Origin: Halonotius aquaticus
GTDB taxonomy: Archaea; Halobacteriota; Halobacteria; Halobacteriales; Haloferacaceae
Direction of reading: 5' to 3'
DNA: 64,000 bases
Assembly: GCF_003605575.1 (NCBI RefSeq)
Contig: NZ_QKNY01000013.1
Coordinates: forward strand, 62,001 to 126,000
A program made the translations under genes and the position numbers. A model generated the notes under the pieces. The model was not told the origin of the DNA. It searched no databases and was given only the letters and a program-made list of their open reading frames with translations. Every line of letters begins with the position of its first letter. Positions within the stretch are counted from its first letter, which is position 1. This document shows positions 48,044-50,644 of the stretch, one piece after another.

Positions 48044-48370
48044 TCAGTTGCCGCCCAGCGGTTGCTGTTGTTCAACCTCGATTTCGACATGGATCGAGTC
48101 CGGAAAGTCCATGTGGCCGACCTCGTTGGCGATGTGTTCCGCCCCGTGGATGTCGATCCGACGTTCATAGACACTGTAGTCCCAGTTTTGGAAACTATCG
48201 CCCGGTTGGAGGGTCTGGTACTGGGGGACGGTGAGCCGGGTTTCGGGGGAGGTATGCGGCCCCTTACACTGGCCACCTTTCCGCTCGACCAGTTCCTTCA
48301 GATCGTCAACCGTCTCAGTGAGGACGGCTCGATCGCCAGACTGGAAGGTGAGTTTCGTGACGAAGGTCAT
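48044..48370 (-). CDS. Stand-alone S10 (uS10)-like protein
   Basis: 108 residues from the ATG at 48370. The fold-defining parts of uS10 are present: FVTKLTFQSGD at the start, KGPHTSPETRLTVPQYQTL (loop that reaches into the 30S head in true S10) and IDIHGAEHIANEV, MDFPDSIHVEIEVEQ at the end. The true archaeal rps10 is normally beside tef1a, which is not here. Proteins like this are annotated as uS10/mL48 family in haloarchaea. It may act outside the ribosome or under special conditions. Confidence 0.8.
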   Translation of the reverse strand: MTFVTKLTFQSGDRAVLTETVDDLKELVERKGGQCKGPHTSPETRLTVPQYQTLQPGDSFQNWDYSVYERRIDIHGAEHIANEVGHMDFPDSIHVEIEVEQQQPLGGN

Positions 48371-48549: not shown

Positions 48550-48993
48550 ATGACGGTTGAGGCAACCAGTGCTGGAGCGATCCTCTTCCGCGATACCCGT
48601 GGCTGCCGGGAGTATTTGCTCCTCAAAAGCCGACCGGGGGACTGGGAGTTCCCCAAAGGCGGGGTCGAAGGAGACGAGGAGCTTCAGCAAACTGCGATCC
48701 GAGAGGTAACGGAAGAAGCCGGGATCGAAGAGTTCCGACTCATCAACGGCTTTCGTGAGGACTACGATTACGTGTTCCAGGCCAGCGGCGACACCATCCA
48801 CAAGACGGTGCATCTGTTCATCGCCCACTCCTTTGAGGCCAGCGCGGAACTCTCGACGGAACACCGCGACCTGCAGTGGCGCGACTACGAGCAGGCCCTC
48901 AATACAATCACCCAAGACGGCCCACGAGAGATCCTCAAACAGGCCGACGAGTTCCTCGATGAGCGGCTTGAAGAGGAGGGCGATTACATCTAA
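48550..48993 (+). CDS. Nudix hydrolase, diadenosine tetraphosphatase-like
   Basis: 147 residues. The Nudix box is complete: GGVEGDEELQQ followed by TAIREVTEEAGI, with the catalytic Glu residues in REVTEE. FPKGGV just before it and TVHLFIAHSFE after it match the asymmetric Ap4A hydrolase subgroup, which splits Ap4A to ATP and AMP. The DUF5787 gene starts 8 bp after its stop. Confidence 0.88.
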   Translation: MTVEATSAGAILFRDTRGCREYLLLKSRPGDWEFPKGGVEGDEELQQTAIREVTEEAGIEEFRLINGFREDYDYVFQASGDTIHKTVHLFIAHSFEASAELSTEHRDLQWRDYEQALNTITQDGPREILKQADEFLDERLEEEGDYI

Positions 48994-49001
48994 CCCGGGT
49001 T

Positions 49002-50012
49002 GTGTCCGGCCCTGCAACCGCCGACTCGGAGTTTAGCTACGAGCTGTGTGTCTGTCGCTGGGCGGAACTCGCGTGGCCGCCCGGCAGCGACAGCAACGAC
49101 GAGAGTGACGCACACACCAGCGACGATACCGTTCATGTTGTTGCCCGACAACTCGGCACGAAACATCGACGCTGGGATACCGTCGTTATTGAGTGTGATC
49201 CGGACGCACTGCAGGCGCGGGCGGCCTTCGGCGACGACGAACTCGATTCCGACCTCCTCCATGTCGTCCGCAACGCGCCCGCTGAGTGGGCGTGGTACCG
49301 CGACGCACTCCCCGAGCCCGACTATCCGTGGCGATACGTCCGGGAGGCGGTGCATCGCGCGGCCGACCGCGGCGTGGTACAGACCCGCAGCGAGGGCAAC
49401 CGGATCCAGCTCAAACAGATCGCCCCCTACCCCGACTGGGTGCAACGACTGATCGCCATCGAGAACAAACCGGATCTTGACGCCGCGGCGGCCGACCGAC
49501 TGGCCGAACAGATTGACCATGATGTTGAAACCGGTCTCGCAGACGAGGTCTGGGTTGCCACCGCCGAAACCGGTGCGACCGTCGAGCCAGCCTTGTTGGA
49601 AGCACTCCCGGTTGAAGCTGGCATCCTCACGACGGATTTCACCGGTGGTGTCGACAGCGACGCCGCCAGCGTCGCTTGGCATCCAACTTCGTTGACACCG
49701 ACCCACGGCGACGACTACCGGGTGTCACGCCGACTCGAACTCGCCGAACGCGCCTATGGCCGCGGCTGGCGGGAGTATCACGCGACGATGCGGCCGGATT
49801 GCCGACATTTTGAGTTGCGACGCACTGGCCGGCTTTTGGTTCCATGGTGTGCTGCCAAGGAGTGCCATCAGTCGTCGTCAGTTTGTAGCGGTGGCTGCGA
49901 GGCGTTCGAACCTGAACCACCGGCGTGGCGAACGAAGGGGTGGCCCATCGACGGCGGGCCGGGAGCCGGCATTCGGCGACTGTTGGCTGCTCGGGCCGCC
50001 CGCAAGCGATAG
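49002..50012 (+). CDS. DUF5787-like protein, putative PD-(D/E)XK nuclease with Cys cluster
   Basis: 336 residues from a GTG, 8 bp after the Nudix gene. The N-terminal 140 residues hold a possible winged helix (YVREAVHRAADRGVV). The segment YPDWVQRLIAIENKPDL contains Asp145 and E154-N-K156, in the order and spacing of PD-(D/E)XK nucleases, followed by a helix with Gln (ADRLAEQIDHDV). The C-terminus holds five Cys in PDCRHF, PWCAAKECHQ and VCSGGCEAF, a likely zinc or Fe-S site. I recall the family as DUF5787 of haloarchaea, uncharacterised. Nuclease activity is inference. Confidence 0.65.
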   Translation: MSGPATADSEFSYELCVCRWAELAWPPGSDSNDESDAHTSDDTVHVVARQLGTKHRRWDTVVIECDPDALQARAAFGDDELDSDLLHVVRNAPAEWAWYRDALPEPDYPWRYVREAVHRAADRGVVQTRSEGNRIQLKQIAPYPDWVQRLIAIENKPDLDAAAADRLAEQIDHDVETGLADEVWVATAETGATVEPALLEALPVEAGILTTDFTGGVDSDAASVAWHPTSLTPTHGDDYRVSRRLELAERAYGRGWREYHATMRPDCRHFELRRTGRLLVPWCAAKECHQSSSVCSGGCEAFEPEPPAWRTKGWPIDGGPGAGIRRLLAARAARKR

Positions 50013-50528
50013 CTACTCCTCAGTTGTCGACACCGACACGGTATCGCGGTCGACGCAGGCGCGGAACGTCGGCACCGCACGATAGATGACTTCGACAACA
50101 CCGATCCGCTTCAATCGCTGGAGGGCTTGCCGGACGTCGTCGACATCGGGGTCGATGTCGTAGGCCGCTCGCAGCCCGTTGAGCACGCTGACGACGCTTT
50201 CGGATCGCTCATCAGCCCCGGCAACGGTTTCGAACACGTTGGCCTCCAACGGCGAGAGTCGGACGGAACTCGGCGGCGCGTCGTCATCTTCGCCGTCGGC
50301 CGGCGGGGCGACCCCCGGCTCGACGCCCGTGAGCTCGACGGCCTCCGGCGTCGATCGGATGAGGCTGTCGTCGTCGCGGTAGTAGTAGTCTTTGAGGTGG
50401 CCTTCGAGATACTGATGGACCTCGCTGCCGCTGTCTAACTCCCAACGTTCCTGTAGCTCGCCGTTTTTTGTCGGCTGGAGCTCGACGACATCTTCCAGCC
50501 GTGAGAGCTCCTCGTCGGTGAGGCTCAT
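50013..50528 (-). CDS. Haloarchaeal protein, DUF5797-like
   Basis: 171 residues from the ATG at 50528 (MSLTDEELSRLEDVVEL); an in-frame ATG at 50552 would add eight. It shows two winged-helix-like parts: ELQERWELDSGSEVHQYL near the start and LSPLEANVFETVAG...IDPDVDDVRQALQRLKRI near the end, so DNA or RNA binding is plausible. I recall the family as DUF5797. It is convergent with the DUF5787 gene (stops adjacent) and divergent from TFS. Confidence 0.65.
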   Translation of the reverse strand: MSLTDEELSRLEDVVELQPTKNGELQERWELDSGSEVHQYLEGHLKDYYYRDDDSLIRSTPEAVELTGVEPGVAPPADGEDDDAPPSSVRLSPLEANVFETVAGADERSESVVSVLNGLRAAYDIDPDVDDVRQALQRLKRIGVVEVIYRAVPTFRACVDRDTVSVSTTEE

Positions 50529-50644
50529 ACCGGCCGTTTGCAACCGTCCCATATCGTGGTTCCGGGTTCCGGTCGATGGAGCGGCGTCGTGACGCACCGT
50601 CGCAACCCTGTGGTTTAAGTACGACAGTTGATTGCCTCCGCTTA

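Follow-up and report, generated by a model that had tools for sequence, protein, structure and literature searches.

What is the 336-residue product of the GTG-initiated ORF (hereafter paralogue A) that lies beside a Nudix hydrolase gene in the Halonotius aquaticus window (the whole 64,000-nucleotide stretch that was analysed), and is it, as the initial annotation supposed, a nuclease of the PD-(D/E)XK kind? The protein belongs to Pfam DUF5787 (PF19100; 351.6 bits, E 4.9e-105, curated cut-off 25). No other Pfam family scored above threshold for A or for its paralogue B, no known nuclease profile matched, and the A1 profile returned chance-level matches from the PDB sequences (best E 0.31). The name DUF5787 occurs in no paper of the literature searched (PMC3287961 mentions neither nuclease nor Nudix), and hence the family was rightly described as uncharacterised. 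We consider it probable that DUF5787 is a pair of haloarchaeal PD-(D/E)XK repair nucleases, in which B is predicted to be tethered to the sliding clamp; the evidence set out below suggests a previously undescribed nuclease family made of two haloarchaeal paralogues.

The second copy present in the same genome, paralogue B (L097:6469-7425, plus strand), is ~30% identical to A (comparison with L091/L097). In a FastTree phylogeny all 109 A proteins fall into a single clade (support 0.952), and a long branch lies between it and the 38 B proteins; judged by their sequences, A and B are anciently diverged paralogues. DUF5787 was recovered from 383 of the 392 genomes of the order (Haloferax volcanii among them) and from 343 of the 345 with a completeness of 90% or more and a contamination of 5% or less; a hand count over the 392 genomes gave two copies in 352, three in 21, one in 10 and none in nine. 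No match to alignment A2 turned up in these nine at E <= 10, in a search that had no positive control alongside. One genome rated 99% complete (L178, G327:C45) holds a single match, a paralogue B, and A may therefore be dispensable or unassembled there. In a wider sample of the phylum 53 of 294 genomes matched, 52 of them above the cut-off. A match below the cut-off outside the order (G227, L092) falls on the zinc knuckle of what we take, by eye, to be a methionyl-tRNA synthetase, and was set aside as chance.

The phage records searched held no DUF5787 match, the 60 pattern matches in the viral contigs searched gave 0 confirmed members, and the plasmid records contributed one match, on a Natronorubrum megaplasmid of 828 kb. 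DUF5787 thus has the look of a core gene passed on by vertical descent rather than of a defence gene. Since nearly all genomes of the order have it and none of the phage and viral collections searched does, a defence role is unlikely, and the candidate was ruled out on distribution; from the initial proposal of a DNA-repair or defence nuclease, repair stays plausible and defence is left unsupported.

The structural models (A: AlphaFold2, pLDDT 88.8, pTM 0.86, from a 108-sequence alignment; B: pLDDT 87.0) support, as the predicted fold of DUF5787, a PD-(D/E)XK core with an inserted winged helix. The A model runs alpha-beta-beta-[winged helix]-beta-alpha-beta and consists, by DSSP, of a helix (residues 10-24), two strands (44-52 and 57-65, the second carrying D59), helices and a beta wing up to ~141, a strand (147-155, with E154) followed by K156, a helix (161-177, with Q170 and D174) and a further strand (182-188). 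Both models contain the alpha-beta-beta-beta-alpha-beta core of PD-(D/E)XK proteins with the insertion between beta2 and beta3, and A keeps the restriction-endonuclease order of motifs (I on alpha1, II on beta2, III on beta3, IV on alpha2), according to the scheme and definitions in the portion of PMC1913061 used here.

In VIA-align comparisons, A was closest to PaqCI (Z 11.3, 160 aligned, 3.5 Å) and SPO1766 (Z 10.8, 145 aligned, 5.0 Å), and the matches below these two were mostly winged helices (MarR/BlaI/ArsR-type, Z 6.5-8.1, ~60 residues) superposed on residues 82-141. For B the top match was SPO1766 (3dnx; Z 12.8, 145/146 residues), which we take to be a member of the MmcB family (PF06319, formerly DUF1052), followed by XisH (9.3 and 9.1), PaqCI (9.0), Can2 (8.0), NucS (8.0) and EndoMS (7.9), with Card1, BstEII and SfsA further down. 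Foldseek of B against viral models placed MmcB-like proteins at ranks 1 (E 7e-4, probability 1.00), 2 (3.7e-3) and 4 (4.6e-3). Resemblance to known PD-(D/E)XK proteins was hence seen both by VIA-align and among the MmcB-like viral models; as neither model had a Foldseek match in the PDB at E <= 0.001, the PD-(D/E)XK assignment leans jointly on topology, residues and VIA-align (Z 8-13). The restriction-endonuclease fold anticipated by the initial annotation was borne out by structure prediction and comparison, which recovered the core and its PD-(D/E)XK neighbours.

Residue conservation was counted in 147 distinct proteins (109 A, 38 B), collected from 59 loci on haloarchaeal contigs and from other genomes of the same order. 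E10, E14, D59, E154, K156, Q170 and D174 are invariant (109/109 A and 38/38 B), which gives the family a conserved motif II Asp on beta2 and a conserved motif III (D/E)xK on beta3. The motif had originally been read as YPDW...IENK, with D145, E154 and K156 followed by a helix Gln. Its residue positions were right (YPDW 143-146, D145, E154-N-K156, Cys 267/283/288/295/299), and the invariance of E154, K156 and the helix Gln (Q170) in 147 of 147 homologues is far more than chance would give in so short a motif. Conservation within the family, on which that reading had been staked, holds for E154/K156 and fails for D145, which is Asp in 88/109 A and 32/38 B. Because D145 precedes strand 147-155 and is thus distant along nine extended residues, it cannot easily partner E154 and K156, and we rejected it as the catalytic Asp. 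The position is fitted by D59: in the model, the catalytic Asp is most likely this residue of beta2, separated from the ExK motif by the winged-helix insertion.

Table. Coordinates in the window of DUF5787 paralogue A, of its predicted structural elements and motifs, and of its adjoining genes
Feature	Position (nt)	Strand	Basis
DUF5787 paralogue A, predicted PD-(D/E)XK nuclease	49002..50012	+	PF19100 match; model pLDDT 88.8, pTM 0.86
Helix alpha1 (10-24), carrying C18 and the candidate motif I residues E10 and E14	49029..49073	+	DSSP; conservation
Strand beta2, residues 57-65, with D59 (most likely motif II Asp)	49170..49196	+	DSSP; D59 invariant
Inserted winged-helix domain, ~residues 82-141, between beta2 and beta3	49245..49424	+	VIA-align
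Codon of D145, catalytic Asp of the initial annotation, variable	49434..49436	+	Two residues ahead of strand 147-155
Strand beta3 (147-155) and K156; E154-x-K156 as motif III	49440..49469	+	DSSP; invariant residues
Helix alpha2 (161-177), carrying the candidate motif IV residues Q170 and D174	49482..49532	+	DSSP; both 109/109 A, 38/38 B
C-terminal Cys4 cluster C267-x15-C283-x11-C295-x3-C299	49800..49898	+	Conservation in 147 homologues
Nudix hydrolase, Ap4A-hydrolase-like	48550..48993	+	PF00293; nearest PDB sequence 3i7u (AP4A hydrolase, E 1.1e-13)
DUF5797 gene, convergent neighbour downstream (context)	50013..50540	-	PF19110; 50/72 A loci

Five C-terminal cysteines had been pointed out and likened to the iron-sulfur site of Cas4/AddB-type nucleases. 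All five are present in the window protein, yet only four belong to the family: C267 and C299 are Cys in all 147 homologues and C283 and C295 in all except A_L057, while C288 is Cys in 33/109 A and 0/38 B. The Cas4/AddB iron-sulfur site is built from one N-terminal and three C-terminal cysteines (C-x2-C-x5-C type); DUF5787 has four C-terminal ones with spacings of x15, x11 and x3, and its N-terminal Cys is not obligatory (C18 is Cys in 108/109 A and 34/38 B, and the 4/38 B proteins that lack it all retain the C-terminal four). The persistence of C-x15-C-x11-C-x3-C in B proteins without C18 points to a self-contained Cys4 metal site, not a one-plus-three arrangement, and the likeness to the Cas4/AddB site is not supported. 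To judge from this pattern, a structural metal, either Zn or an Fe-S cluster, most likely occupies the site.

A metagenome-derived A homologue (L057:5965-6921, plus strand) lacks the C283/C295 segment and keeps the catalytic residues. The Cys region was also compared with DUF7140 (a small haloarchaeal Cys domain), to which 38 of 108 members matched weakly at E <= 5 (best E 0.0011, below the DUF7140 cut-off). In the Halonotius genome an apparent membrane protein of 379 aa carries DUF7140 as its Cys4 tail (L135:1498-2637, minus strand), and its gene lies ~2 kb from the NreA gene.

The two paralogues are set apart by their C-termini. The usual end of B is Q-x-x-L-(D/N/S)-x-F, and the PIP-box pattern Qxx(L/I/M)xx(F/Y/W) occurs within the last 18 residues of 37/38 B and 0/109 A proteins, the window protein being among those that lack it. 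The tail of the own-genome B (QSGLNRFL) can be set beside those of Fen1 (QTGLDRWS) and NreA (RQTGLDIFK) from the same genome. In a crude background set 17 of 1133 ORFs matched the pattern in the last 16 residues and 11 of these were B, leaving 6 matches among ~1,120 non-B ORFs. According to the part of PMC4929162 drawn on here, NucS and NreA have PIP motifs at their C-termini, and the reference list of that paper ties NreA to mitomycin C repair. By its PIP-like tail, B appears to be tethered to the PCNA clamp. Two further ORFs can be mentioned: that of NucS/EndoMS in the Halonotius genome (L133, G000:C14:123227-123571) has no PIP-like end, unlike described archaeal NucS, and a 306-aa ORF beside B (L103:7358-8279, plus strand) has one (QSSLGSFS).

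The gene context of A was conserved as a block. The upstream Nudix gene reported initially is there (its ORF ends 8 nt before the DUF5787 start), and a co-directional Nudix gene lies upstream in 62 of the 76 A loci that have at least 700 nt of upstream sequence; the neighbouring Nudix proteins are 81-99% identical to that of the window. Genes for an S10-like protein (58/72), DUF5797 (50/72), an M20 peptidase (43/72) and transcription factor S (TFS, 34/72) are also kept near A, in counts that score loci cut at contig ends as misses. B was found near genes for a metallo-beta-lactamase (17/22 loci) and an AAA ATPase (15/22). No restriction-modification gene occurred among the neighbours scanned. 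The small S10-like protein of the window (48044-48370, minus strand), which adjoins the Nudix-DUF5787 block, scored below the S10 equivalog cut-off.

This context could be taken to mean that DUF5787 is an RNA or nucleotide-stress nuclease, coupled to the Nudix enzyme (whose closest solved relatives are Ap4A hydrolases) and working near transcription factor S. Both the frequent co-directional Nudix gene and the recurrent TFS gene are in line with such a role. Nevertheless, as the whole block is syntenic, the A-Nudix pairing is not strong functional evidence, and the gap between the two genes, which ranges from overlap to 1.9 kb, is at most 30 nt in only 15 of the 62 loci. Considering moreover that B is without this Nudix gene and has the clamp motif, which points to DNA, we regard an RNA or nucleotide-stress function as quite unlikely.

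The abundance of winged helices among the structural matches of A raises another reading, namely that DUF5787 is a PD-(D/E)XK relic that has lost catalysis and serves, as a winged-helix protein, in DNA binding or regulation. The catalytic positions are, however, invariant in every homologue of both paralogues, which is not expected if catalysis had been lost, and makes a relic very unlikely. Fainter still is the chance that DUF5787 acts in defence or end processing as an iron-sulfur nuclease of the Cas4/AddB type: the PD-(D/E)XK core, the conserved C-terminal cysteines and the almost constant C18 of A are what such an enzyme would have, but the cysteine spacing, the B proteins that dispense with C18 and the near-universal distribution with no phage match and no confirmed viral contig argue against it, as does PADLOC, which had no model for A and one weak match for B (E 0.017). 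A PHROGs search likewise returned nothing for A and an E of 0.15 for B.

Returning to DUF5787 as a repair-nuclease pair, we reason that D59 and E154 would bind a divalent metal, with E10 or E14 (alpha1) and Q170 or D174 (alpha2) nearby, and that K156 would serve phosphodiester hydrolysis, while the winged helix between beta2 and beta3 may position duplex or branched DNA. The window copy A would work off the clamp, whereas B would act on PCNA through its PIP box. We predict that the pair serves in housekeeping DNA repair and that its targets may be branched or crosslinked DNA, in the way put forward for MmcB. A more specific scheme, which we put forward tentatively and hold to be unlikely in its entirety, is that A and B work as a constitutive pair, MmcB-like and confined to haloarchaea (B on PCNA behind the fork, A free or as the partner of B) for the replication-coupled incision of crosslinked or branched DNA, outside the described haloarchaeal repair inventory. 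Should the repair-nuclease reading be true, nearly every haloarchaeon, including Haloferax volcanii, would have two unrecognised conserved nucleases, one of them bearing a clamp motif; with the exact residues and the tail named, this core gene pair can be tested directly in an archaeon amenable to genetics.

Among known systems, the type IIS restriction endonuclease PaqCI, the top fold match of A, shares 8% identity with it. Cas4/AddB have in common with DUF5787 the PD-(D/E)XK core and a Cys cluster near the C-terminus, and differ in the number and spacing of the cysteines, in distribution and in context. NucS/EndoMS (PF01939) also shares the core (2vld Z 8.0 and 5gke Z 7.9 against B), and its clamp binding by a C-terminal PIP (as given in the sections of PMC4929162 and PMC8228993 relied on here) parallels paralogue B; its accessory domains differ from those of DUF5787, the Halonotius genome has a separate NucS gene, and the PF01939 profile gave no match to DUF5787 at E <= 1. 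MmcB, for its part, shares the PD-(D/E)XK core and provides the best fold match of B, a resemblance seen with 3dnx (on our presumed family assignment) and with the viral MmcB-like models. The PF06319 profile gave no match at E <= 1, nor at E <= 5 over 108 sequences. MmcB would be the closest functional model by fold, though not by sequence family. In the portion of PMC9578287 cited here it is a PD-(D/E)XK endonuclease that guards Caulobacter from mitomycin C. Compared with MmcB, DUF5787 adds the inserted winged helix, the C-terminal Cys4 site and, in B, the PIP box, and constitutes a two-copy, near-universal haloarchaeal family.
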